Below are positions 939 through 48,201 of a DNA stretch of 64,000 bases, piece by piece. Every line of letters begins with the position of its first letter. Position 1 is the first letter of the stretch. Origin of the DNA: Zygnema cylindricum (taxonomy: Eukaryota; Streptophyta; Zygnematophyceae; Zygnematales; Zygnemataceae). Under the pieces are notes generated by a model. It ran no database searches, had not been told where the DNA came from, and worked only from the letters and a program-made list of their open reading frames with translations. Location: positions 161,838 through 225,837 of the forward strand of contig JBBHKE010001456.1 in NCBI GenBank assembly GCA_037447655.1, given 5' to 3'. A program made the translations under genes and the position numbers.

Positions 939-1821
939 TGTTGAAAAGAGGTAATCAATAGTTCATTTGTCTATTTTAGTTATACTTTAAAGAGAGAGAG
1001 TGAGGATCAAAGGCACGCCATTGCTGCCGCCATATTTAGAAAGTGGCAGATTTTGAAGTAGAGGATATTTTACTAAAATGTTGCCTACATCCGGATTTGA
1101 ACATGCGACCTCAAGATTCTATATAGAGCCTTAACCATTAAGGCGTTACAAAACAACACACATGACGAATTTCAAAGATATATAAACATTAATGCAACGG
1201 CTAATTAACACCGCACTAACGAAGAGGAACAATTCATGCACGTACGCGAATCTGAACTGTGTAAAATATGTTTTGATCGGACGGCCAGCATTATTACCGC
1301 CACCCAAAGTGAGCTTTTAGCGGCATTCGGAGATTGATTCATGCGGTTCCACGTGGCGCCACATTATTTGATACCGAGGAAGAGGGGAGGAGGAACCATG
1401 GCTCCTGATTTGAGAGGTGTCACTTTGTAGACTATGTCGTACAATGGACGTACAATAAGTACATCGCCCATTATTCCTTCTTGTACTAAATAGTGTTCCT
1501 ATTGGATTAGGGTTTAGTAGTAGGTAGTCGTGTGTAGGAAGACCAAGCCTTAGTGATATTTAGGCACCTCTCTCTAAGAGAGCTTGTAACTATAAATGTT
1601 ATCTTTGACCAGCCATAATTTACTGCTCAAGGGAGAAAATTTAGTGATTCTTTTTGCGTTTGACTCAAGGGAGTCTTGTCCTCATAGACGTGAGGGTGGT
1701 CAGAATATTTGTGTGCCTAGGCGGCACTTATTTAGTGGGAAAGTTGAAGGGGCAAATATTATCCTAGAGGCTTTATATAGGCTACTCATTTTGTGGGTCA
1801 ATGGAGACCAAAGAATTTTTC
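939..1821 (+). repeat. 5' LTR of element A
   Basis: About 883 bp, paired with 6191-7068. Contains an antisense tRNA-like module, GTAC-rich inverted sequence in U3, and the U5 hairpin GACTCAAGGGAGTC at 1662-1675. The inner end is slightly mutated (TTTTTCG instead of TTTCAG). Confidence 0.92.
1081..1151 (-). other. Antisense tRNA-like module in 5' LTR of A
   Basis: Read on the minus strand it has a box A-like CCTTAATGGTTAAGGC and a box B-like GTTCAAATCC, followed by TTTT (AAAA at 1075-1078 on the plus strand). Degenerate as a cloverleaf. Confidence 0.5.
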
Positions 1822-6190: not shown

Positions 6191-7068
6191 TGTTGAAAAG
6201 AGGTAATTAATAGTTCACTCGTCTATTTTAGTTATACCTTAAAGAGAGAGAGTGAGGTTGAAAGGCAAGCCATGGCTGCCGCCATATTTAGAAAGTGGCA
6301 GATTTTGAAATAGAGGATATTTTACTAAAATGTTGCCTACATCCGGATTTGAATCTGCGACCTCTGGATCCTATATAGGTGGGCGCCTTAACCGTTAAGG
6401 CGCTACAAAACGATACACATAACGGATTTCAAAGATATATAAACATTAACGCGACGGCTAATTAACACCAAACTAACGAAGAGGAACAATTCATGCACGT
6501 ACGCGAATCTGAACTGTGTAAAATATGTTTCGATCGGACGCCCAGCATTATAGCCGCCACCCTAAGTGAGCTTTTGGCGGCATTCGGAGATTGCCTCACG
6601 CGGTGCCACGTGGCGCCACATTATTTGATACCGGAGAAGATGGGAGGAGGAACCATGGCTCCCGATTTGAGAGGTGTCACTTTGTAGACCATGTCGTATA
6701 ATAGACGTACAATAAGTACATCGCCCATTATACCTTATAGTACTAAATAGTGTTCCTATTAGACTAGGGTTTAGTAGTAGGTATTCGTGTGTAGGCAAAC
6801 CAAGACTTAGTGATATTTAGGTACCTCTCTCTAAAAGAGCTTATAACTATAAAGGTCATCTTTGACCAGCCATAACTTACAAGGAGCAAATTCAATGATT
6901 CTTTTTGCGTTTGACTCAAGGGAGTCTTGTCCGCACAGGTCTGATGGTGGTCAAAATATTTGTGTGCCTGGGCGGCACTTATTCAGTGAAAGTTGAAGGG
7001 GCAAATATTATCCTAGAGGCTTTACATAGGTTGTTCATTTGTGGGTCAATGGAGACCATATAATTTCA
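6191..7068 (+). repeat. 3' LTR of element A
   Basis: About 878 bp, TGTTGAAAAG to ATTTCA, followed by the GTTAG duplication. It differs from the 5' LTR by scattered substitutions and small indels, so the insertion is not recent. Confidence 0.93.
6333..6406 (-). other. Antisense tRNA-like module in 3' LTR of A
   Basis: Minus-strand reading has CCTTAACGGTTAAGGCG (box A-like), GATTCAAATCC (box B-like) and TTTT just after (AAAA at 6327-6330 on plus). Confidence 0.5.
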
Positions 7069-12156: not shown

Positions 12157-12384
12157 CGCAGAAATTAATGGTCCATTTAAAGTATTTTCCTTCAAATAGA
12201 AATATAGAAAAAAGTCGAGGCAGTCTACCTCTAACTTCTCTCTCCAACTCTTAAACTTGTCGCAGTCATTGAGAAATTGGAGAGGAAGCTAGAGCCATGG
12301 CTACCTAGGCTATCCAAAGGTTTACGGGAAATATATAAATTAGTTTATTTACCGTTAGGGGTTTATTTACTAAAAGGATATGTG

Positions 12385-12456
12385 ATGCCGCCAGGATTTG
12401 ATCTTGGTACTTGCCGGACGGTAAGTAGCTGGTAGCCGGTAGCCTTAACCGTTAAC
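12385..12456 (-). other. Antisense tRNA-like module in 5' LTR of J
   Basis: Minus-strand reading has GGTTAAGGCTACCGGCTACC near the start, a weak box B (AAGATCAAATCCTGG) and TTTT after it (AAAA at 12372-12375). Weakest of the three LTR subtypes. Confidence 0.4.
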
Positions 12457-13025
12457 TTTAGACTTAGTGTTACTTACTATTGTGTTTGATATTTAATTAA
12501 ATATTAAGACGTAGGATAGTTCATTTAACTAAAACAGTTTACGAGAGACATAGATCCAGTAGTGTAATAAAACGGATTACGGTATGGATAAGAAATTAAT
12601 ACCGCGCATTTATTTTTTTAGCGAAACGAATACCGCGCATGTATTTATTACGGCTACGATTAAATGTGAATTTAATCAGACAACCAGAATTAACGCCGAG
12701 ATCGCGGAAGAGGATTTCGGCAGATTTTGGTTATCGCCACATTGGATGACACGTGGCGGAATGACATTGAATCGCGACATCTCTGAGGATTGAGGGAGCG
12801 AATCCGGATATACCACGTGTCGACATTTAGGCCATATCGTACAGAGTTCATACAGAAAGTACACCGGCAACTTTACTTATGTGTACGGAAGTGTAATTTG
12901 ATTGGCTCCGTACATTAGTAGATAGAGTCTGTGAGGGAGAGAGGACTTAGAAAATTTAGGAGATAGGATCCTCTCTCCTAGAGAGCTTCGGTACAACAGG
13001 TCAACTTTGACCCTCCATAACTTAC

Positions 13026-13077
13026 TGCTCAGAGGAGCAAATTCAGAGATTCTTTTTGCTATCGACTCAAGGGAGTC
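13026..13077 (+). promoter_or_regulatory. Twin U5 hairpins of J
   Basis: Two perfect short stem-loops in tandem: TGCTC-AGAG-GAGCA (13026-13039) and GACTC-AAGG-GAGTC (13064-13077). The same pair occurs in A, D and the 3' LTR of J in various states. Confidence 0.6.
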
Positions 13078-13222
13078 TTGCCTTTATAAGGGTGAAGGTG
13101 GTCAGAGTTATTGTCTACCCAGGTGGCAGTTGTTCTTGCTGAAACAAAAAGGGGTCAGGGTTATCCTAGAGGCTTCTTAGAAACTGTCCATTTTGAGGAC
13201 TTAGGGAGGTCTCAGAGTTTCA

Positions 13223-17611: not shown

Positions 17612-18659
17612 TGTAGAAATTAATGGTCCGTTTAAAGTATTTTCTAAGTCGAAATAGATATATAGAAAGAAGCCGAGGCAGTCTACCTCTAACTTCTCTC
17701 TCCAACTCTCAAACTTGTCGCAGTCAATGAGAAATTGGAGAGGAAGCTAGAGCCATAGCTACCTAGGCTATCCAGAGGTTTACGGAAAATATATATATTA
17801 GTTTATTAACCGTTAGGGGTTTATCTACTAAAAGGATATTTGATTCTGCCAAAATTTGATCCTGGTACCTGCCGGACGGTAAGTAGCCGGTAGCCGGTAG
17901 CCTTAACCGTTAAGCATAGACTTAGTGTTACTTACTATTGTGTTTGATATTTAATTAAATATTAAGACGTAGGATAGTTCATTTAACTGAAATAGTTTAC
18001 GGGAGACATAGATCCAGTAACGTAAAAGTACGGATTACGGTACGGATAAGAAATCAATACCGCGCATTTATTTTTTTAGCGAAACGAAAACCGCGCATGT
18101 ATTTATTACGGCTGCGATTTAATGTGAATTTAATCGAACGCTCGGAATTAACGCCGAGATCGCGCAAGAGGATTTCGGCGGTTTTTGATCATCGCCACAC
18201 CAGATGACACGTCGAGGAATGACATTGGATCAGGGCATCTCCGAGGATTAAGGGAGCGAATCTGGATAAACCACGTGTTGACACATAGGCCCTATCGTAC
18301 AGAGTTCGTATAGAGAGTACACTGGCAGCTGTACTTTTGTCTACAGAAGTGTAATCTGATTGGCTCCGTACATTAGTAGATAGAGTCTGTGAGAGAGATA
18401 GGACTTAGAAAAATTAGGAGATTGGATCCTCTCTCCTAGAGAGCTTCTATACTAAAAGTCAACTTTGACCCTCCATAACTTATTGCTCAAGGGAGCAAAT
18501 TCAGAGATTCTTTTTGCTATCGGCTAAGGGGAGTCTTGCCTTTACAATGGTTAAGGTGGTTAAAGTTATTCTCTGCCAAGGTGGTAGTTGTTCTTGCTGA
18601 AACACAAGGCTTCTTGGAAGGTGTCCATTCTGAGGACTTCTAGAGGTCTCAGAGTTTTA
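17612..18659 (+). repeat. 3' LTR of element J
   Basis: TGTAGAAATTAATGG to GAGTTTTA; pairs with 12157-13222. Contains TTGCTCAAGGGAGCAA at 18483-18498 in the U5 leader. Confidence 0.9.
17843..17914 (-). other. Antisense tRNA-like module in 3' LTR of J
   Basis: Minus-strand reading: GGTTAAGGCTACCGG at the A-box position, GGATCAAATTTTGG at the B-box position, TTTT after it (AAAA at 17830-17833). Confidence 0.4.
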
Positions 18660-19410
18660 AGTTGGCTACCTCCTAAATCCTCTAATTCCTAAACCCCTCT
18701 CACAAACCTTATCTACTAAAGTACGAACCATTCAGAAGACTGTAGAGTACAGAAAGGTACTATGGCCGATGTCCTTTCTGTACGCCATGTGTACGACATG
18801 GCCATGGAGTGGACGCCTGTCTCTATCGAAATTGTCCTCATGCTCTCTAGGATTCCGTTTCCTAATGCTATCTTACCATGTGGCGTTGGGTCATGTTACT
18901 TGAAAGCCGCCAAAGCCAACATTCCAAGATCGCGACAATGATATGTGCTGTAGGATCCAAACCGACTTTTAATGCTAAATGTCTGGTACATTTATTTCGT
19001 GCGGTTTCACGTTTGCACTATACTTCAACTGGTTTTCATGTTCTCTATTTTCAATTGCGTTAATCAGACTAGAGTTTCTTAACACTGTTTAAATAGAAAT
19101 CAAACCATATGTACTCTAACGACCTCCTACGACATACCGGCTTAAAGCTGACGGCTACGTCTCGCTTTGCCGGTTAGAGGTTCGAGTCCTACCGGACTCT
19201 ACCTTTTATTAGAGAGTGACTTATGTCACTCTCTGGTCCTGCCTATAGAGCTAAGGCAGCCATGGCTCCATGTTCCTTTTTTTTTTTCAGTGACTACAAC
19301 AAGAATGGGGGCTAGTGTGAGGAGGTAGAGGTAGGCTGCATGCGGATTCATTTGTACTTTTAATATATTTAAGACTTAGAAAATACCCTCTAAATCTAGT
19401 GATTTCAAAA
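18660..19410 (-). repeat. 3' LTR of I, upper part
   Basis: Matches the U3-side of the E, G and H LTRs; its outer end TTCAAAA abuts the purine tract complement CTCCCCTTAA. Contains a perfect inverted repeat GTACAGAAAGG (18747-18757) / CCTTTCTGTAC (18773-18783). Confidence 0.85.
19131..19203 (+). other. tRNA-like module, antisense to element I
   Basis: CTTAAAGCTGACGGCTACG resembles the D-arm/anticodon part; box B GGTTCGAGTCC is canonical at 19179-19189; TTTT at 19204-19207. A perfect palindrome AGAGAGTGAC-TTAT-GTCACTCTCT follows at 19211-19234. Confidence 0.55.
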
Positions 19411-21480
19411 CTCCCCTTAATCTCAATTTGTCTTTTATTCCACATTTTTCTCTACAATTTTTTAATTTGTGAGAGGGCACAGTTTTGGTTATCATATTAG
19501 CCACCATTTCCCTATCACCCTTATACACAAGATTCAAAATTTTATTTTAAACCTTTTTGCTCACAAAACTTATTGTTATCTCCATATGTTTAGTTTTGAA
19601 ATGATGTTTTGGATTGGCTGCAATTGCAACGGCAACCTTATTATCATCAAAACACTTTATGTACTCCCTCATTTATATACCATAGTTTTTGCAATATAGA
19701 CCTCACCTGCATCAACTCTTTTACAGCGGAACAAGAGGCCATGTACTCACCCCCCATAGTGGACTGAGCAACCACCTTTTGTTGCTTGATCCTCTAACAA
19801 CAAGCACCTTCCTCCACATACAACATATACCCAGAAGTGAATCTTCTCATAGGTGCATCGCAATAACTGGCATCACTCCAAGTAGTGATGTCAGTGTGCT
19901 CCCCTCCCAGATGCAACCATAAATCTCTACTTACCATTAGATATCTCATGACTCTCTTGGCGCCTCCCAGTCTCTCTTCCTAAAATCATTAAGACTCCTA
20001 CTTAGGCCTTCAACTGCTGTCGCTATGTCCGGCCTAGTACAGTTCATAAAGTAGATAAAGCTTTCCTACAACCTGCCTGTAAGGAATAGACTTTATAAAT
20101 TGTCTATCTTATGGGCTCATCTGATCATCTAAGATTACCACTCCTCCTACACTGCCATCACTTACTTTCTTCAAGTCCATAGGAGTGGTACAACTGTTGG
20201 CTATTTCCATTTAGAATTTCTCAAGCATATTCCCTATAGTTTTTTTTTGAGTAAGTTTGATAATTTTTTCTCCCTATCTCTTTCCATTTGAATTCCCAAA
20301 ATGAATCTTGCGTCCCCTAAATCCTTCATGTCAAATCTGCTTCTAAGATCTTTCTTTAGCTTATTGATCTTTTCCATAGACTTACTTAACACCAATAAAT
20401 CATCCACATATATCGCAATGAAAACAATACCATTTTTATCCTCAAACATATAAATAGAATGGTCAGAACTGATCCGGATACATCCGAGGCTAGTGAGAAA
20501 CTCATCTAGTTTCTTATTCCATTGTCTGGGAGCTTGCTTCATTCCATATAAGAACTTTATGAGTCTGCAAACTTTGCTCTCCTCTCATTCCTCTACGAAC
20601 CACTCTCGTTGCCGCATGAAGATTTATTCCTCTAGCTCACGGTTGAGGAAGGCGGTCTTAATATCCACCTCGTGTATTTCTATGTCTTCCGCTGCCGCAA
20701 GATTCAAGAGAATCCTTAATGATGGGAACCAAACCACCAAAGCAAAAGTCTCATCATAATCTATCCCTTCTTTTTGGGTGAACCCATTTGCTAGTAACTG
20801 AGCCTTATATCTCTCAATGGTATTATCTGGGTTTCAATTTAAACACCCATTTACACCCAATCGGTTTTCTGTCCGGAAGACGGTCCACCAGCTCACAAGT
20901 ATTCGCTTCCATGATAAAGGCCATCTCATTATTTACAGATCTAACCCATCTATCTTTGTCTTGACTATCCATTGCCTCTAAGTATGACTGAGGCTCATCA
21001 GGGTGAGACAGCTTAGTTTCATTGCAAGCGGCATGTTTTACTTGTAGCCTTTTGATGCTTCTTCGTCCTCCCTCAAAGTTCGAAGTTGGATTAGAGGGAA
21101 GTCTTTGGTTCCTCCTCACTGTCTCATCGGCTCCCCTATCCATGGAAGTCGGCTCCGGTTCCTCCTTCTCTGTCTCTTTGGAGCGTATAGAGATATTGGG
21201 AGATTTGGGTAAATCTCCCTTATCTTGGTTCTCCCATGAATCTGCAATAATTTTTTCACTCATGTCCCTTCCGAAAGATCCGAGTCCTCCTCACTCTCGG
21301 ACTCAAAACTGATTTTTATCTTCTTAATGTATCGAAGGGATCAAATGACTTCCCTTCATCGATGAAAACTAGGTTTTTTACCCGAATGATATCTTGTTTA
21401 GCTAAGTCATAGACTCTATATCCTTTGACATCCTCATTATATCCCACAAAGTATCCACAATTCCCTTTACCATCTAATTT
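19411..21480 (-). pseudogene. RT-RNase H and linker of element I
   Basis: RNase H decayed at 19411-20230. RT C-terminal frame 20234-20542 carries QAPRQWNKKLDEFL and AIYVDDLLVLSKSMEK (YVDD intact). RT N-terminal motifs lie at 20543-20880, and the acidic linker with the SNFEGGRRSIKRLQ block at 20823-21263. Frameshifts separate the pieces. Confidence 0.86.
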
Positions 21481-22606: not shown

Positions 22607-23366
22607 TGTTGAAAATCACTAGATTTATGGAGTATTTTCTAGTTCTGAATAAAGAGAAAAGAAAAAGCGCAGGCAGTCTGCCTCCACGTCTTTCCTCTAT
22701 CCCCCATACTTATTGTAGTCACTGAAAGAGAGAAAGAATACTGGAGCCATGGCTGCCTCAACTCCATAGGTAGAACTTAAATGTGACATAAGTCACTCTC
22801 AACAAAAGGTTGAGTCCGGCATGACTCGAACCTCCGACCAACAGAGCGAGGCATAGCCGTCAGCTCTAACCAGTCTGTCATAGGTGTTTGTTAAGTTACA
22901 TAGGGAATTATTTAAACTATATCATGATCCTTAAATCCGATTAACGGAATTACGACCTAGGAAACATACAACTAGTTAATATATAGTGCGTACATGATCT
23001 CGCACAAAACAAATGAATCGAACATTTGTTTTTACGGCTAACATTTAATGTCGGTTTTGATCTAACGACACATATGGCCGCCGAGATCCCGGATGGTCAG
23101 TTTGGCGATTTTCGGACGTGTCATGATTTGGTGCCACGTAGAGAGATAACATTTGGTCGGGAGAATTCCGGAGAACATAAAGACGAGTAAATGTGGACAC
23201 AAGTCCACTCAATGGCCTTGTCGTACACATGTTGTACAAAAAGGACATTGACCGTAGTACCTTCTGTACTTTACAGTTATGTGATTCGGTCGTACTACAA
23301 TAAATCGATGTTGTGAGAGAGGATTAGGACTTAGCATTTTTTTAGTAGACAACCACCTCTCTCTTT
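22607..23366 (+). repeat. 5' LTR of G, first part
   Basis: U3 side of the LTR, cut at the TCTTT (23362-23366) where H entered. Same order as 34983-35750. Confidence 0.88.
22808..22879 (-). other. Antisense tRNA-like module in 5' LTR of G
   Basis: Minus-strand reading: box A-like TGGTTAGAGCTG, box B GGTTCGAGTC at 22832-22823, TTTT after (AAAA at 22804-22807). Confidence 0.55.
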
Positions 23367-24040
23367 TCCAATTCTATGTTCTACATTGGACTACAGAATT
23401 CAAGAAGCCGCTAGATAGCTTTTAACTAGCCCACTTTCAGCCACAACCACTGCTGCCCAAAAGGACAAATTCAAAGTTTGACTGCATTTTTGTGTAGCGT
23501 GGACTCACCTGAGTCCGTAGCAAAAAGAATCACTGAAACCGGCCTTATGTTATCAACGATATATGCCGTGGGGTTAAAACTCGACATTTAACGTTAGCCC
23601 TCAAAACAAATGTCCGATGAATTTATTTCGTGCGAAATGACGTTCGCATTGAAATATTAACCAGTTTTATGATCTTTCGTTCATAAATTAGTTAATTGGT
23701 TTCAAGACCATATCACAGTTTAAATAGTTATCAAACCCTATGTATCCTAACGAACTTCTACGACAGACTGGTTAGAGCTGCGGGCTACGCCGCACTTTGC
23801 CGGTCAGAGGTTCAAGTCTTGCCAGACTCAACCTTTTGTTGAGAGTGACTTATGTCACTCTTTAGTCCTGCCTAAAGAGCTCAAACAGCCATGGCTCCAC
23901 TACTCTATCTCTAGTTAAGTGACTACAACAAGTATGGGGGATAGAGAAAAGAGGTGGAGGCAGACTGCATGCGCTTTTTTTTTTTTTCTACTAAACTAAT
24001 CAGATCTAGAAAATACTCTACAAATCTAGTGAATTCAACA
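23367..24040 (-). repeat. 3' LTR of H
   Basis: 674 bp; about 310 bp shorter than its partner because of an internal deletion near 23545. Adjoins the complement of the purine tract CTCCCCTTATTTTC. Confidence 0.88.
23762..23832 (+). other. tRNA-like module, antisense to element H (3' LTR)
   Basis: Box A-like ACTGGTTAGAGCTG at 23767-23780, a perfect 5-bp anticodon-type stem TGCGG...CCGCA, box B GGTTCAAGTCT at 23809-23819, TTTT at 23834-23837, then the palindrome AGAGTGAC-TTAT-GTCACTCT at 23842-23861. One of the clearest examples. Confidence 0.6.
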
Positions 24041-29982: not shown

Positions 29983-29997
29983 GGTGGGCCCATAACT
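29983..29997 (-). promoter_or_regulatory. Primer-binding site of H (half-tRNA type)
   Basis: Reads AGTTATGGGCCCACC on the minus strand, one change from the family form. Confidence 0.8.
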
Positions 29998-30987
29998 TGC
30001 ATTTCTATGTCTTTTATTGGACTACATAATTTAGAAAACCTCTAGATAGCGTTTAACTAGCCCACTTTCAGCCACAACCACTACTGCCCAAGAGGAAAAA
30101 TATACTGTTCAGGGTGGACTTCCTTGAGTCCTTAGCAAAAAGAGTCATAGAAAACGTCTAGCCAACCGATTAATTATGACGTGGCAAAAATGCCAATTTA
30201 TACAGATCTCTCAAAGGGAGAGGTGATTGTCTAAAAGTATGCTAAGTCCTACTTCCCTCTCACAAACCCTATCTACTACAGTACGACCCAATCACATAAC
30301 TGTAAAGTACAAAAAGGTACTACAACCGATAACCTTTCTGTACGGCTTTTTACGATAAAGCCGTTGAGTGGACTCCTGTCAACCTTGCACTCGTCCGTAC
30401 GCTCGTTGGGATTCATATGACCAAATGCTATCCCTCCACGTGGCGCCAGGTCATGCCACGTCCACAAACGCCAAATTGACCATTCTAAGATACCGACAAC
30501 GATATATATGCCGCGGGGTTTAATCCGACATTGAACTTTAGCCGTCAAAACAAATGTCTGATTCATTTAATTCGTGCGAAATGACGTTCGCACTAAAATG
30601 TTAACCACTTTTATGTTCCTTTCTTCATAATTTAGTTAACTTGTTTCAAGACCATATCACTGTTTAAATAGTTATCAAACCCTATGTATCTTAACGGACT
30701 TCTACGACAGACTAGTTACAGCAGACTGCTACGCCACGCTTTGCCGATCGTAGGTTCGAGTCCTAGCAAACTCAACCTTTTGTCGAGAGTGACTTAAGTC
30801 ACTCTTTAGTCCTGCCTAAGGAGATGAGGCACGCATGGCTCCATTACTCTCTCTCTTCTTCAGTAACTACAATAAGTATGGGGGATGAAGAAAAGAGGTG
30901 AAGGCGGACTGCCTACGCTTTTTCTTTTTTTTTTCTACTAAACTATTCAGTCCTATAAAATACTCTATAAATCTAGTAATTTCAACA
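29998..30987 (-). repeat. 5' LTR of H
   Basis: 990 bp, TGCATTTC to TTTCAACA on the plus strand. Contains the U3 inverted repeat 30307-30317 / 30333-30343. Confidence 0.9.
30705..30776 (+). other. tRNA-like module, antisense to element H (5' LTR)
   Basis: Box B GGTTCGAGTCC at 30753-30763, TTTT at 30778-30781, then palindrome AGAGTGACTTAAGTCACTCT at 30786-30805. Box A is weaker than in the 3' LTR. Confidence 0.5.
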
Positions 30988-31221: not shown

Positions 31222-31236
31222 GGTTATGGGCCCACC
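31222..31236 (+). promoter_or_regulatory. Primer-binding site of G (half-tRNA type)
   Basis: GGTTATGGGCCCACC after the LTR end. Confidence 0.85.
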
Positions 31237-34982: not shown

Positions 34983-35980
34983 TGTTGAAAATCACTAGAT
35001 TTATGGAGTATTTTCTAGGTCTGAATAAAAGGAAATGAAAAAGCGCAGGTAGTCTACCTTCACATCTTTCCTCTATCCCCCATACTTGTTTTAGTCATTT
35101 AAGGAGAGAGAGAATAGTCGTGCCATGGCTGCCTCAACTCCATAGGATGGACTAATGAAAGACATAAGTCACTGTCAACAAAAGGTTGAGTCAGACAAGA
35201 CTCAAACCTCCGATCGACAAAGCGAGGCGTAGCCATCAGCTCTAACCGGTGTGTTGTAGGAGTTCGTTAAGTTACATAGGGTATAATAATAACTTAAACT
35301 GTATCATGATTCTTAAATCTGATTAACGAAATTATGACTGAGGGAACATACAACTAGTTAATATATAGTGCGTACATGATCCGGCACGAAACAAATGAAT
35401 CGGACATTTGTTTTGACGGCTAACATTTAATGTTGGTTCTGATCCAACAGCACATATCGCCGCCGAGATCTCGGAATGGTCACTTTGGCGGTTTTCGCAA
35501 GTGGCATGACCTAGCGCAACGTGGAGAGATAACATTTGGTCACGATAATTTTGGGGAACATAAGGACGAGTAAAATGTGGATACACGTCCACTCAATGGC
35601 CTTGTCATACACAGGTTGTACAGAAAGGACATCGACCATAGTACCTTTCTGTACTTTACATTTGTTTCATTGGATCGTACTGTAGTAGACAACGTTTATG
35701 AGAGAGGATTATGACTTAGCAATTTTTCAGTAGACATCCACCTCTCTCTTTGATAGTTTAAATAAATTGGTGTCTTTGACACCTCATAACTTATCAGTTG
35801 GATGGTGGTTTTCAGTGTTTCTTTTTGCTACGCACTCAGGGGAGTCCAGACTACACAGGGGTGCAGTCAGATTGTCAACTTGTCTACATATGGAACAGAG
35901 GTTATGTTTGAAAGTGGGTTAGTTAAAAACTACCTAGAGGCTTCTGAATTTTACAATCCAATGGAGGACACAGAGTTGCA
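34983..35980 (+). repeat. 3' LTR of G
   Basis: 998 bp, TGTTGAAAATCACTAG to CAGAGTTGCA. Confidence 0.9.
35184..35255 (-). other. Antisense tRNA-like module in 3' LTR of G
   Basis: Minus-strand reading: GGTTAGAGCTGATGG, box B GGTTTGAGTC, TTTT after it (AAAA at 35180-35183). Confidence 0.5.
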
Positions 35981-37419: not shown

Positions 37420-37590
37420 TGTTGAAATTAATGTATAGAGTGTTGGTAAAAGGTAACTAATAGTTCACTTCTATATTTTAATTAGAATGTAAAAAGAGAG
37501 AAAGAGAGGACCAAAGGCAGGCCATGGATGCTGCGTCATTTAGAAGGAGGCAGAATGAATTAGAAGGTATTTTACTAGTTTTAGCAAAAT

Positions 37591-37672
37591 CTTGCCTCTA
37601 GCTGGATTTGGAGCGGGGTATGCAGATTGCTATGTATACCCACGCCTTATCCATTAAGGCACTAACGAAACG
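37591..37672 (-). other. Antisense tRNA-like module in 5' LTR of D
   Basis: Minus-strand reading: TTAGTGCCTTAATGGATAAGGC (shortened here to the D-arm-like part TAATGGATAAGGC), a weakened box B GCTCCAAATCC, TTTT after (AAAA at 37586-37589). Confidence 0.5.
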
Positions 37673-38146
37673 ATACACATGAAATATTTCACGCATATAT
37701 ATTTATTGATCTATAAAACTAATTCGCAGCAAGCTAACGAAAACGCGCATTAATCAATTCATGCATGGAAGCGAATCGAAGCCGTAAAAATACAACAGAT
37801 CGGACGACTACCATAACAGCCGCCACCCACAATAAGATTTCGGCGGCCTTTGGGGATAGCGTCACGCGGTGCCATGTGGCGCTACATAATTTGATATCGG
37901 AAAAGATGGGAGGAGGAACTATGGCTCCCAATTTGGCAGATGTCACCTTGTAGACCATGTCGTACAATGGTCGTACAATAAGTATATCACCCATCGTGCC
38001 TTCTTGTACTATATAGTGTATCAATTAGACTAGGTTTTAGTAGTAGGTAGTCGTGAGTAGGCAAACCAAGACTTAGTGATATTTAGGTACCTCTCTCTAA
38101 GAGAGCTTGTAAATATAAAGGTAATCTTTGGCCAGCCATAACGTAA

Positions 38147-38199
38147 TGCTCGGGTGAGCAAATTCAGTGATTCTTTTTGCTGCGGACTCAAAGGAGTCC
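38147..38199 (+). promoter_or_regulatory. Twin U5 hairpins of D
   Basis: TGCTC-GGGT-GAGCA (38147-38160) and GGACTC-AAAG-GAGTCC (38184-38199), both perfect stems. The first loop differs from J while its stem is kept. Confidence 0.6.
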
Positions 38200-38467
38200 A
38201 AACTACACAAGGATGTAGTCGGTTAGAGTCTTTGCCTGCCAAGGTGGCACTTATTCAATGGGAAATTCAAAGTGGGGAATATTGTCCAAAACACATATTC
38301 AAACTTGGATTCTATGATGGAATTGAGCACACAGAAGGTCTTCTCTTCACAAGGGTGAAGGTGTATTGGGGTTTTAATTGTCATGGGATCATCCAGTTGA
38401 GTTTATATCAACTTGGAGTCGGCACTATCTACATTAGCTTCTTTTGGATCTGCGAATTCCGTGGGCA

Positions 38468-39541
38468 ATGGAGCCCATAGAATTTCAGGTTATGGGCCCA
38501 CCATCTAGGGTGCTTATATTCGATGGAACAGACTTCACTTATTGGGAGTTTACGATGGAGGGATTGCTTTTTGAAAATCACTTACGGGATTTTTTTCGGG
38601 ACAAGTGAGGTGTCCGCCACCGAGATTTGGCGGAACTCACTACGGAGAATCATCAGGGGCTTCCCAAAAAACCAACCGTATTTTAGATGCAACGGCAGGT
38701 GAAGGTAAAAATATTGTCATGGAAGGGGGAAAAAAAGGAGAAGGATAAAGGGACACTTATGCTGAGGGGAGCTATGCTCTCCGCTACAACTCCACTTAGA
38801 GGGGTTATAAGTAAAACTGAAGAAAATGGATAGTAAAATTTGGGAGTATAAAACACAATAGCAAAACATCTTCTACTTAGATATGTGTTTAAGTCCATAG
38901 CTATCACTCATTTAAGTCTAACCAAGTCTTCGGAAATCTAGGAAACATTAAGTCAGATTTATAAAAGTGAGACTCTTCAGAGGCAGCAGTTAGTAAAACA
39001 AGAAATATAGGCCTTTGTTTATTAAGGCGGTAACATGATAGAGTTTTGCAATGATATTGCTGCGTTATATGTCGAGCTTGCTAGTGCGGGGTATGTAGAA
39101 TCAGAGGAGAGAAAGATTAATACATTACTCATAAAACTTCTAGATGAGTACGAAAACATCATTTATTGTATGCATACAATGGATGGCTCCTCATGGACTT
39201 GGAGCTTTACCATGGGGATAATTCTTGTGAGGGAAAGCACTTTGGAGCTTCGTAGGGGAAGTGACTGGGTGACTGTATTAACAGCTGGCGGTGATTGGCG
39301 GAAGCGTGATGAGAGGAACGGCAGTGACGAGCAGAAGCGTGATGAGCGGAAAAAAGACAAAGGTAATCCTTATCGGAACTTTGTTGGAAAGAGAGGGAGA
39401 CGAAAAGAATGGGGAGCTTTGAAAAAGAGGGTTTGCTTCATTTGTAGGGCCCTGGGTTATTATATGGAGAAATGTCCTTGTTTGGAAGAACTTAGAAGTT
39501 GGAATGTGGATGAGGAGGAAGAAAGTGAAGAGCAGAAATAG
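38468..39541 (+). pseudogene. Gag of element D
   Basis: An ATG inside the LTR (38468) reads MEPIEFQVMGPPSR through the PBS, then LIFDGTDFTYWEFTMEGLL, stopping near 38607. Frame 39035-39541 holds the capsid-like part (MIEFCNDIAALYVELASAGY, RESTLELRRGS) and a zinc knuckle CFICRALGYYMEKC in which the His is replaced by Tyr. Broken in the middle by stops. Confidence 0.85.
38488..38502 (+). promoter_or_regulatory. Primer-binding site of D (half-tRNA type)
   Basis: GGTTATGGGCCCACC directly after ATTTCA. Confidence 0.86.
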
Positions 39542-40443: not shown

Positions 40444-41530
40444 TGTTAAAATTAATATATTTTCTAGGTATGTATTGGAAAAATAAATAGAGTGTTGGAA
40501 AAAGGTAATTAATAGTTCATTTCTATATTTCAGTTAGAATGTAAAAAGAGAGAAAGAGAGGACCAAAGGCAGGCAATGGGTGTTGCGTCATTTAGAAGGA
40601 GGCAGAATAAATTAGAAGGTATTTTATTAGTTTTAGCAAAATCTTGCCTCTGGCCGGATTTGAACCGGGGTATGCAGATTGCTATCTAGACCCATGCCTT
40701 ATCCATTAGAGCACTAACAAAACAATACACATGAAATGTTTCACGCATATATATTTATTGATCCATAAGACTAATTCGCGGTAGACTAACGAAAACGCGC
40801 ATTAATCAATTCATGCATGGAAGCGAATCGAAGCCGTATAAATACAACACATCAGATGACCACCATTACAGCCGCCACCCACAATAAGGTTTTGGCGGCC
40901 TTTGGGGATAGCGTCACGTGGTGCCACGCGGCGCCACATAATTTGATATCGGAAAAGATTAGAGGAGGAACTATGGCTCTCGATTTGGTAGATGTCACCT
41001 TGTAGACCATGTCATACAATGGCCGTACAATAAGTACATCGCCCATCGTACCTTCTTGTACTATATAGTGTTCCTATTGGACTAGGGTTTAGTAGTAGGT
41101 AGTCGTGAGTAGGCAGACCAAGAGTTAGTGATATTTAGGTACCTCTCTCTAAGAGAGCTTGAAACTATAAAGATCATCTTTGACCAGCCATAACTTAATG
41201 CTCGGGTGAGAAAATTCACTGAATTTTTTTGCTGCCGACTCAAGGGATTCCAAGCTATACATGGATGTAATTGGTCAGAGTCTTTGCTTGCTAGGGTGGC
41301 ACTTATTCAGTGGGAAAGTCAAAATGGGGAATATTGTCCAGAACACATATTCAAGCTTTGCATTCTGTGGTGGACACAAGGTCTTCTCTTCACAAAGGTG
41401 AAGGTTTATTTGGGTTCTTATCGTCAAAGGATCATTCATTTGAGTTTATATCAACTTGGAGTCGGCACTACTTAGATTAACTTCTTTTGGATCTGTGAAT
41501 TCTGTGAGCAATGGAGCACATAGAATTTTA
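40444..41530 (+). repeat. 3' LTR of D
   Basis: 1087 bp, TGTTAAAATTAATATA to AATTTTA, followed by ATATA. Confidence 0.9.
40643..40719 (-). other. Antisense tRNA-like module in 3' LTR of D
   Basis: Minus-strand reading: box A-like TAGTGCTCTAATGG (40716-40703), box B GGTTCAAATCC (40666-40656) with a CCGG/CCGG T-arm-like stem, TTTT after it (AAAA at 40638-40641). The D-arm (TCTAATGGATAAGGC) resembles plant tRNA-Arg. Confidence 0.6.
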
Positions 41531-44510: not shown

Positions 44511-45617
44511 CTCCAAGGGCACACTTCTGTCTTCGAGGAATCTCCTTCTCCTCTAGACTCTTGTCAAGAATGAGCTCTTTATCCTCCTTATAAGACTCAT
44601 CCTCGATTTCTCCTGTCACTTTTGTGACCTTAAGTGCCTTTTTCTTCCCTCAGAAAGAACCCCCTCCAAGGTTCTCTTGGAGCCTCAGCTCCGACAGCTT
44701 GACACAGTCCGCGATAAAGTGTCATTGCTTTTTGCAAATATGATAAAAGCCCTTTGGGGGCCTTCGTCCTTCCGAGTGATCTCTTTCCCCCTTGTACGGT
44801 TTCTTCGGGTCCTTACCCCATTGATCCCTCCTGCAACTAGAGCTTGAATGCTCTTTCCTCCTCTCCTAATCTCCATGTTGTTTTACTGCACTAGTACCAT
44901 CTGGACCACTGTATTCTACTTCCATGAACTATCAATCATTTCTTGTACTCGGTACACTACGTTCTCATACTCGTTTGGTAACTTCATATTGAGAGTGTTA
45001 ACTTTCATTTTCATTGTACCTATCCATCCGGCACTTTCCATCTCCATATACAAACAAAAAAGATCATTACAGTAATCTAACATCTTTACTCCTTTGTAAG
45101 TGTAACTCACTAGCTTTTGCTCAACCAACTGGAGCTCTTGAATACTACCAGCTCTATAGATCTTCACCAAACTCACCCACAACTCCTCGGCCATGTAATT
45201 GTGAAGGTGAGGGGTGGCCAAAACTTGAGTGAGATGCCTTAGAATGAAGTTCTTGGCAGCCATGTTTACGTCTTCCCACATTGGAGTATCGTTCTCCACG
45301 ATCTTCACGGCCGCCGCTCCCGGTGCCCTAGTAATAGTAGTGAGGGGTGTCTCCTTCCATTTCCCTTTTTCGGACACACTGCTGTCCCCATCATCGGCCT
45401 CTTTCGCGGAAGTAGTCGCTGCTGTAGGAAACCTTACTCCTCCAAATCCTTGTGGAGTTATTCAAGGTGGACGTTTCAATTGTCCACTGACGATACCCCA
45501 GTATCGTTTTTCGCACAAAGCCCCCATCATCATGGCCTCCCAATAGATGAACCCAGATCCATTAAAGGTGGGCACCCTAGAGGGTGGACCCATAACCTGC
45601 AATTCTGTGTCCTCCAT
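44511..45617 (-). pseudogene. Gag of E
   Basis: An ATG inside the LTR (45617-45615) reads MEDTELQVMGPP through the PBS. Frame 44916-45377, 153 codons, is capsid-like (NFILRHLTQVLATPHLH, QLVEQKLVSYTYKGVKMLDY, MKLPNEYENVVYRVQEM). Frame 44685-44876 holds RRGGKSIQAL and a damaged zinc knuckle. Confidence 0.87.
45583..45597 (-). promoter_or_regulatory. Primer-binding site of E (half-tRNA type)
   Basis: Reads GGTTATGGGTCCACC on the minus strand, one base from the family form. Confidence 0.82.
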
Positions 45618-46568
45618 TAGACTACAAACTACAGGAAGCCTCTAGATAGTTTTTAACTAACCCACTTCAAGCCACAACCATTGCTGGCCAAGAAGGCAAA
45701 CTCACAAATTAGCTGCACCCTTGTGCAGCCTGGACTCCCTTGAGTCCGTAGCAAAAAGAATCACTAAAAACGGTCAACAAGCCGATAAGTTATGAGCCGG
45801 CAATAATGTCAATTTTATACAAAGCTCTCTTGGAGAGAGGTGGCTACCTACCAGATTTTCCTAGGTCCTAAACCCCTCTCACAACCCCTATCTACTGAAG
45901 TACGAACCAATCACATTACTGTAAAGTATAGAAAGGTACTACGGCCGATGTCCTCTCTGTACGGCTTGTGTACGACAAGGCCACTAAGTGGACGCGTGTC
46001 ACTTTTCCACTCGTCCGTATGTTTTCCGGAATTCCCGTGACCAAATGTCATCTTTCCACGTGGTGCCAGGTCATGCCACGTCCATAAACGCCAAAGTGAT
46101 CATTCTGCGATCTCGGTAGTGATGTATGGCGTCGGATTAAATCCGACATTAAATGTTAGCAGTCGAAACAAATGTCTGATTCATTTGTTTCGTGCGAAAT
46201 GATGTCCGCACTGAAACATTAACTGCTTCTATGTTCCTTTGTTTACATTGCAGTTAATTGGCTACAAAACCACGTACAACATTAAATACAATTCAATCCC
46301 TATGTTACTTAACGAACTTCTACGACAGACTGAATAGATCTACCGGCTACGTTGTACTCTACCGGTCGGAGGTTCGAGTCCTACCAAACTCAACCTTTTG
46401 TTGAAAGTGACATTAGTCACTCTTTAGTCATGCCTGCTAAACTAAGGCAGCCATGGCTCAACAACTCTCTCTATCCTTCAGTGACTACAACAAGTATGGG
46501 GGCTAAAGAGAGGAGGTGGAGGCAGGCTTATACCTAGAAAATACTGTATAAATCTAGTAATTTCAACA
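45598..46568 (-). repeat. 5' LTR of E
   Basis: 971 bp. U5 hairpin GGACTCCCTTGAGTCC at 45732-45747. Confidence 0.9.
46324..46395 (+). other. tRNA-like module, antisense to element E (5' LTR)
   Basis: Box B GGTTCGAGTCC at 46371-46381, preceded by CCGGTCGGA as in many plant tRNAs; box A mutated (ACTGAATAGATC); TTTT at 46396-46399. Confidence 0.5.
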
Positions 46569-47329: not shown

Positions 47330-48201
47330 GAAGCTATCAAGAATCCTACCAAACAGCTGTTCTTAAGTGCTCACCAATTCTTATACAAGCATCCAAACTT
47401 CACAAAACTCTATCACAATATAGAGTAGCATAAACATTGATAACTCCCAAAGTTTTAGCACAATTGACCCGACAACACTCAAGATATAATACTCACAAGT
47501 TTCCCAAATTTTGTCTGCAGTTTTACTACTTGGAAGTCTGGATACATAATATGTTATGAGTCCTAAGTCTTATACTTGTGTTTTTTAGGGTTTTTTTTAG
47601 GGTTTTCTATCCTGTACAAAATCACATTAAGAATATCAGACAGTGTGTTTTCCGTACGGACCATATCAAATATAATCGTGGTTGCGTTGTCCTGTCTGTG
47701 TTGCAGCTTTGTTGCTGCGCTGCTCTGCTGCTGCGCTGCTCTACTGTATAGCAGCTGCTCTGCTGTATAGCAGCTGCTATGCTGTATAGCAGCTGCTCTG
47801 CTGTATAGCAGCTGCTCTGCTGTATAGCAGCTGCTCTGCTGTATAGCAGCTGCTATGCTGTATAGCAGTTGCTTTGTTGTATAGCAGCTGCTCTACTATA
47901 TAGCAGTTGCTCTGCTGTATAGCAGCTGCTCTTCTCTGTTGTATAGCAGTTGCGCTGCTCTGTCTGTATAGCGGCTGCGCTGCTCTGAGACTGAAATCTT
48001 TCCAAAAAGACAACAGCTTTATCCAATCTGCGCCAAAGCTGCTTTGTTTCGTTCGATGTTTGACATGCGTATGTGAGTGTCGGTGCCATTCCAAAATACT
48101 TGTTCTGTACCTAGAAGGCGACGCGTGTCCTTTTGCATTACATATTCAATCTTTCTGCCGTAAAACTAATTTACTAAGACTTAAAGTTTTCCAAAATAAA
48201 C
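47330..48201 (-). repeat. Probable 3' LTR of K
   Basis: The upper end is firm (AATAAACA before the purine tract). 48055-48130 matches 61205-61275 in the LTR of L (GACATRCGTATGTG, GCCATTCCAAAATACTTG). The lower end is not defined because no second copy exists; 47330 is a guess. Contains the minisatellite. Confidence 0.5.
47727..47990. repeat. 19-bp self-complementary minisatellite
   Basis: About eleven units of the type TGCTGTATAGCAGCTGCTC. GTATAGCAG recurs every 19 bp from 47746 to 47917, then at 47941 and 47966 after small insertions. Each unit contains TGCT-GTAT-AGCA and AGCAGCTGCT, so either strand can fold into repeated hairpins. Confidence 0.93.

Follow-up and report, generated by a model that had tools for sequence, protein, structure and literature searches.

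Results and Discussion

Copia elements and an antisense module in their LTRs

The stretch of DNA analyzed here, which we call the window, comprises 64,000 nucleotides of a contig of Zygnema cylindricum (JBBHKE010001456.1) and is largely a nest of Copia elements in which gag, integrase-linked and RVT_2 domains can be recognized. Thirteen LTRs within it belong to the related types A/D, B and E (the last comprising L1-L7), and each carries a box A-like sequence, a box B and a TTTT at near-fixed spacing on the strand opposite to its element; this combination is referred to below as the module. Complete module-bearing LTRs measure about 0.9-1.1 kb, and the elements that carry them contain gag and/or RT-related domains, element D excepted. 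The E-type LTRs form three nested pairs (L2/L5, L3/L4 and L6/L7), a pairing inferred from DNA similarity and primer-binding sites. The features are as follows.

939-1821 and 6191-7066: A LTR pair
12160-13222 and 17615-18663: B LTR pair
18682-19421: L1, an E-type LTR without a partner
37420-38487 and 40493-41528: LTR pair of element D
1075..1145, minus strand: module A5, in the A 5' LTR
6327..6402, minus strand: module A3, in the A 3' LTR
12372..12459, minus strand: module B5, in the B 5' LTR, with the weakest boxes
17830..17917, minus strand: module B3, in the B 3' LTR
19088..19095: A/T block of L1, TTTAAATA on the plus strand, a candidate Pol III TATA for the plus-strand unit, with TATTTAA as candidate Pol II TATA for the element on the minus strand
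19130..19207, plus strand: module L1, E-type and unpaired (box A 19130-19140, box B 19179-19189, TTTT 19204-19207)
22804..22880, minus strand: module L2, in an E-type 5' LTR of a plus-strand element, primer-binding site at 31222
23761..23837, plus strand: module L3 (box A 23761-23771, box B 23809-23819, TTTT 23834-23837)
23887..23896: palindrome AGCCATGGCT, some 50-70 nt past TTTT, with counterparts at the corresponding position of the other LTRs of the family
30705..30781, plus strand: module L4, in the 5' LTR that is taken to pair with L3; primer-binding site at 29997, minus strand
35180..35256, minus strand: module L5, in a 3' LTR, inferred partner of L2
36859..36935, plus strand: module L6, in a 3' LTR
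37586..37661, minus strand: module D5, in the D 5' LTR, D arm with 15 nt identical to host tRNA-Arg genes
40638..40713, minus strand: module D3, in the D 3' LTR, D arm with 16 nt identical to tRNA-Arg-TCT, box B GGTTCAAATCC
46323..46399, plus strand: module L7, in the 5' LTR that is taken to pair with L6; primer-binding site at 45597, minus strand
1822, 13223, 28108, 29997, 31222, 38488, 45597 and 63274: primer-binding-site-like sequences, similar to the complement of the initiator tRNA anticodon arm

Orientation was assigned from the primer-binding sites and the coding strand, with LTR partners and L1 placed through DNA similarity. Read along the antisense strand, an A/T block is followed after about 24 nt by the predicted start and 11 nt later by box A; box B then lies at a distance of 31-44 nt, and TTTT and AGCCATGGCT come after it. 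The initial annotation of this DNA had likewise counted 13 LTRs with the module and had placed a TTTT shortly after box B, and both observations hold: the module is antisense to the element in 13/13 copies, and the T run, exactly 4 T in every one of them, begins 14 nt after box B in 11 copies and 18 nt after it in the two B copies.

The same annotation described three LTR subtypes that keep the module and otherwise align poorly. While the module is indeed common to all types, the poor alignment elsewhere was not borne out, as profiles match well outside the module. The A/B/D profile matches E LTRs over almost their full length (for example 35979-35004, 1e-58), and the E profile matches the B LTRs at 1e-71 and 6e-56 as well as parts of the A and D LTRs at 5e-24 to 9e-20. 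Since the types are related outside the module too, one inherited module is the simplest reading. What had been named the weakest carrier, "J," is probably type B in our naming; the J-type LTR pair (27460-28107/29167-29814, 94% alike) is adjoined by a primer-binding-site-like sequence and gives no module match.

The primer-binding site after the 5' LTRs is GGTTATGGGCCCACC or a near variant, which appears to be the complement of the anticodon arm of plant tRNA-iMet. Priming by a half-tRNA-Met is described for Osser, Bryco and part of Gymco-II Copia elements (PMC6317226). Searches of IMG/VR by RT protein and by the exact module pattern yielded no relatives. Element D, at 4.1 kb, lies above the TRIM size range, and neither of its two ORFs has a confident Pfam match. 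In the genome, the A-type query yielded several pairs of LTR hits spaced about 3.0-3.1 kb apart, which suggest a young non-autonomous family with boxes A and B retained.

Likeness of the module to host tRNAs

Host tRNA genes were located with RF00005, which gave 63 scored places in the genome, and 44 genes were taken for comparison. The best copy, D3, has the 16 nt CTAATGGATAAGGCAT in common with tRNA-Arg-TCT, and D5 has 15 nt in common with the tRNA-Arg-TCG genes; both stretches lie in the D arm, which the initial annotation had described as Arg-like in A/D. Further exact shares with host tRNAs are GGTTCGAGTCC in L1, L4 and L7 and TTGGTTAGAGC in L6. On the opposite strand, serving as the control, the longest exact shares were 7-11 nt; the two strands were equal in A3 and B3 (9 and 7 nt, respectively), and in B5 the opposite strand gave the longer one (9 vs. 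8 nt).

Local alignment of each module to nine host tRNAs was compared with 300 shuffles. The number of shuffles that reached the module score was 0 for L2, L4, L6 and A5, 1 for D3, 3 for L7, 4 for A3 and D5, 6 for B3, 11 for L3, 19 for L1, 39 for B5 and 47 for L5. Elsewhere in the LTR concerned, the module score was reached by 2/96 windows for L1, 18/148 for L5, 6/124 for A3, 1/162 for D5, 45/156 for B5 and 5/154 for B3, and by none for the other seven copies. Overall, the D copies and most E copies are clearly tRNA-like, whereas the B copies are barely so. Judged by its sequence, the module looks derived from a tRNA or a tRNA-derived SINE, and the similarity to host tRNAs supports the capture of such a sequence that the initial annotation had proposed.

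A tRNA gene at the module was rejected. A search with the tRNA covariance model RF00005 (E of 10 or less) gave no match in the window or in the module stretches of D3, A3 and L3, and ARAGORN at default settings reported no tRNA in the window; with lowered thresholds it returned up to hundreds of predictions over the window and was uninformative. Among the host sequences, a tRNA-like gene near a tRNA-Lys gene (L103:137-208, equal to L049:2261-2332; 51.8 bits with RF00005) has a CTA anticodon and was labeled Pyl by ARAGORN, and is more likely a suppressor-type or decayed tRNA.

Candidate promoter boxes, terminator and A/T block

The window was scanned for box A as RRYNNRRYGG (at least 7/8) and box B as GGTTCRANYCY (at least 9/10) at a spacing of 25-45 with TTTT within 25. 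Ten places were found, nine of them in modules (L7 through a shifted box A), against a mean of 0.78 and a maximum of 3 in 100 shuffles; requiring box B at 10/10 left five places, every one of them in a module, compared with 0.04 in shuffles. The excess shrank under the stricter box A TRGYNNARBGG (7/9), which gave six places, five of them in modules, against 1.23 (maximum 4), and this box A combined with a 10/10 box B gave two places against 0.06. Taken copy by copy, box B matches at 9/10 or better in 10/13 window copies, in 55/57 copies of the E set and in 24/25 A-type copies from the genome. Box A matches RRYNNRRYGG at 6-7 of 8 positions in 12 window copies (L1 at 7 or more of 8) and TRGYNNARBGG at 5-8 of 9 in the 12 in-register window copies, T1 and G3 being mostly absent.

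A T run terminator is present in 50/57 E-set genome copies. Among the A-type genome copies TTTT stands at the site in 14/25 and within 31 nt of box B in 22/25; the original TTTT is gone in 8/25, which have a TTTT 30-31 nt after box B instead, and 3/25 have no TTTT in the sequence examined. The shifted TTTT of these eight copies may reflect terminator turnover or chance in A/T-rich DNA.

The start was predicted by the rule that box A lies 11 bp from it, the plant TATA being located at -30/-24 (PMC10137851). An all-A/T 8-mer starts between -33 and -24 of the predicted start in 13/13 copies, which are related and do not amount to 13 independent cases; the chance of such an 8-mer per random LTR position is 0.02-0.13. 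Of the 44 host tRNA genes, 38 have such an 8-mer beginning in the broader range of -44 to -20 relative to the mature 5' end; a T run within 40 nt is present in 25 host genes and is exactly 4 T long in 12 of these. As TATA motifs occur upstream of just 22-32% of flowering-plant tRNA genes (PMC11700998), a Pol III unit does not need the A/T block. On the element strand, a TATTTAA/TATATA-type motif lies 38-44 bp from the predicted start in 11/13 copies (it is absent in L5 and L6) and is the sole searched motif found at the same place in all LTR types. In A5, A3 and D3 a TTTT directly follows the predicted start, which counts against reading the module as a Pol III promoter.

Conservation of the box bases among window copies

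Between the two members of an LTR pair, the boxes show decay similar to that of the remaining sequence (15/99 vs. 271/1925 sites differ). Between the E lineages they change less (4 changes in 33 columns vs. 406 in 892, p=0.0008), and the comparison of boxes with the rest over all seven lineages gives p=0.013; for box B alone the corresponding values are p=0.09 (E) and p=0.015 (all lineages). Taken in full, box A does not stand out, 304/838 LTR windows being equally or more conserved; box B does, with 44/838. The full-LTR alignment misplaces the TTTT in A and B, which works against the boxes in both the window-conservation and the lineage tests. Within the module, 9/12 specified columns are fully conserved among the window copies vs. 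9/47 others (p=0.0005), with T1 and G3 counted in and A21 left out.

Other blocks of the LTR, AGCCATGGCT included, are conserved to the same degree as the boxes. AGCCATGGCT ranks near the top in conservation across the LTR types (5/839 windows equal or better), and the eight perfect GCCATGGC sites in the window all lie in LTRs of the module family. A further palindrome, perfect or near-perfect, lies directly past TTTT in five E-type LTRs (TGACTTATGTCA at 23846-23857), with the variants TGACATAAGTCA, as read on the other strand, and TGACTTAAGTCA.

Such a setting is what would be expected if the conserved blocks were ordinary Pol II regulatory sites, for instance the MYB-like TAACGGTTA, with a resemblance to boxes A and B. 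The blocks are found immediately upstream of the likely TATA of the element and amid the other conserved blocks, and TAACGGTTA is present in A3 and B. However, the MYB-type core, CNGTTR, is found at the D loop in just 4/13 copies, which disfavors a MYB site, the tRNA likeness of several copies reaches past one site, and the bases kept are the set specified for Pol III, with degenerate positions at background in the E set (see below). We therefore regard Pol II sites as a rather unlikely explanation.

Conservation of the box bases across the genome

The genome (353 Mb, 2689 contigs) was searched with an LTR piece (2471 candidate places, 40 scored) and with a query made of E flanks only (1480 candidates, 40 scored, 30 loci). 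Absence of the module from most family members, which the initial annotation had named as evidence against its proposal, was not observed: of the 30 loci sampled with the flank-only query, 27, including two window copies, can be aligned across it. The annotation had also proposed a comparison of rates between boxes and flanking LTR, and here the outcome depends on the set. A shallow test on 27 close copies showed no significant difference, with 6 variants shared among copies in the 33 box columns and 76 in 390 others, box B varying mainly at the Y position and a CG, while the specified bases were slower in the 66-copy E set and in the A-type set.

The tree of 66 E copies comprises 9 window rows, 30 rows from flank-only loci (second LTRs included) and 27 from the module-including query. 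The specified set consists of 15 bases specified for Pol III; T1 and G3 were omitted, the family being without them, and A21, an invariant base of tRNAs, was added. On internal branches the specified bases show 0.47 changes per column vs. 1.96 in base-matched LTR columns (p=0.0001), whereas degenerate box positions are at background (1.92 vs. 2.04, p=0.46). The difference is also seen in the flank-only and window copies (n=39; 0.40 vs. 1.27, p=0.0011) and in the flank-only copies without the window (n=30; 0.27 vs. 0.82, p=0.0046), and circular shifts of the specified set gave 2/403. Terminal branches likewise show low rates at the specified bases (2.13 vs. 4.36, p=0.0003, for 66 copies; 1.13 vs. 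2.02, p=0.011, for n=30), which in the 66-copy set would not be expected from decay after insertion alone. The E spacer evolves at background (1.97 internal changes per column, the rest 1.99).

For the A type, a flank-only query gave 1978 candidates, of which 40 were scored, and 27/39 non-window places were retrieved; 25/28 hits span the module (one being a second hit in L112), making 29 copies with the four from the window. On internal branches the specified box bases show 0.18 vs. 1.05 changes per column (p=0.0011) against a background from which the query flank was dropped, since hits had been chosen for flank likeness, a decision taken after the test with the flank in the background had proved non-significant (boxes alone, p=0.08; TTTT included, p=0.19). 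Rates are low at the degenerate positions as well (p=0.034), terminal branches show no difference for specified bases (p=0.37), and the spacer has 1.83 internal changes per column vs. 1.04 in the background pool.

These rates bear on whether the module is a fossil, left by a tRNA or SINE that inserted long ago into the ancestral LTR and carried along passively without function. The lack of a match to the tRNA model, the poor boxes of some copies and the non-significant result for 27 copies would all fit such a history. The conservation of specified bases on internal branches in two LTR types, together with the normal decay of the boxes within LTR pairs, speaks against it, and we consider the fossil reading disfavored and unlikely.

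RNA structure

A different product of selection would be the antisense RNA itself, in which case the module would be an RNA gene making tandem hairpins, for example as a source of small RNAs or an antisense regulator of the element. The outline of the hairpins is like that of the dumbbell pri-miRNA of foamy viruses, whose U3 Pol III cassettes lie in sense. In the seven E-type window copies RNAalifold does give an antisense z of -5.2 (0/300 shuffles), compared with -2.3 for the sense strand (5/300). The candidate of a conserved structured antisense RNA, strong in these seven copies, nevertheless failed in 65 genome copies, where RNAalifold found no structure; when the structure is given, 85% is paired across genome copies with little covariation. 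Another stretch of the LTR has a lower mean z than the module (-2.94 vs. -2.44), folds of single copies show no steady strand preference (L6 and D5 are stronger in sense), the A/D copies have just a short hairpin in common, and the E spacer changes at the background rate. An RNA gene is therefore very unlikely in our judgment.

A putative backward Pol III promoter beside the Pol II promoter

We favor, with modest confidence, the reading that the module is a type 2 Pol III promoter, predicted to be bound by TFIIIC and TFIIIB, that lies antisense in the LTRs of a Copia family. Its specified promoter bases are kept and the spacer and fold are not, which argues that it is selected as a binding or start site and not for an RNA. 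That the key bases are apparently kept by selection suggests that the element uses the machinery of tRNA genes beside its own promoter.

We suggest the following scenario: (i) a tRNA-derived promoter (TATA, box A, box B and TTTT) would have been fixed antisense in the U3 of the LTR, (ii) its A/T block may be common to the Pol III unit and the adjoining Pol II TATA of the element, and (iii) TFIIIC on boxes A and B with TFIIIB on the A/T block would set up a divergent Pol III/Pol II start region, from which an antisense RNA of about 90 nt ending at the T run could be made, at least at times. The bound factors, or the act of transcription, might keep the LTR promoter open in silenced chromatin, and the module would then owe its retention to them rather than to the RNA itself. 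The broader proposal, that a large plant-type Copia family has captured a backward Pol III promoter which shares the Pol II TATA and shields the promoter from silencing, much like a tRNA gene acting as a boundary or opener, is put forward tentatively, as a possibility that we hold to be well short of probable.

Relation to known systems

The nearest known system appears to be Helenus/Ajax (PMC10886601). In Helenus (TRIMp3; Kojima, 2024), tRNA-derived boxes A and B lie in the LTRs, mostly with no functional tRNA, and the elements are Copia-linked in fungi (PMC10886601). The module resembles them in its tRNA-derived sequence, in its boxes A and B and in its location within the LTR. However, Helenus elements are TRIMs of 311-1263 bp, and the carriers described here are not short TRIMs, having LTRs of about 0.9-1.1 kb and remains of gag and RT. 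In addition, the unit here is antisense (13/13) and does not face the direction of the element's own RNA; antisense units are not described for Helenus in the available text of that source, where the word "antisense" occurs 0 times. The same text states that "not a few" Repbase LTRs hold part of a tRNA, of which only TRIMs under 1000 bp were followed further (PMC10886601).

Cassandra, a TRIM carrying 5S sequence, is a plant example of a Pol III promoter in an LTR, with promoter and terminator conserved (PMC10886601). The plant-type LTRs in this study share with it the Pol III promoter, which is a predicted one here; the 5S-type promoter of Cassandra makes the element's own RNA, whereas the present one is of tRNA type, antisense and beside a likely Pol II TATA. 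Foamy viruses have miRNA cassettes transcribed by Pol III in U3, with an RNA product of tested function (PMC7693620). The short Pol III unit predicted in U3 here is comparable, but it lacks a conserved RNA fold. With tRNA-derived plant SINEs, for which box A is defined as RRYNNRRYGG and box B is likewise defined (PMC2774510), the module shares both boxes, and unlike them it is embedded in LTRs.

In the literature surveyed, mostly open-access and largely at the level of titles and abstracts, no antisense tRNA-type promoter in the LTRs of full Copia elements was found; what appears to be new here is that the unit is antisense and that its carriers are protein-coding Copia elements. TRIMs and foamy viruses already provide cases of LTRs with a Pol III promoter, and in those the RNA is, or is considered to be, what matters, whereas here it is the promoter bases and not the intervening RNA that are kept, antisense, in LTRs of coding-size elements. 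If confirmed, this would mean that Pol III factors help some LTR retrotransposons to keep their Pol II promoter active, and that such LTRs are a source of tRNA-like sequence in these genomes.

As a separate observation on the window, a tandem array of 19-bp units at 47697-47981 (GCTGCTCTGCTGTATAGCA-like) gives rise to weak matches to Rfam miRNA families.
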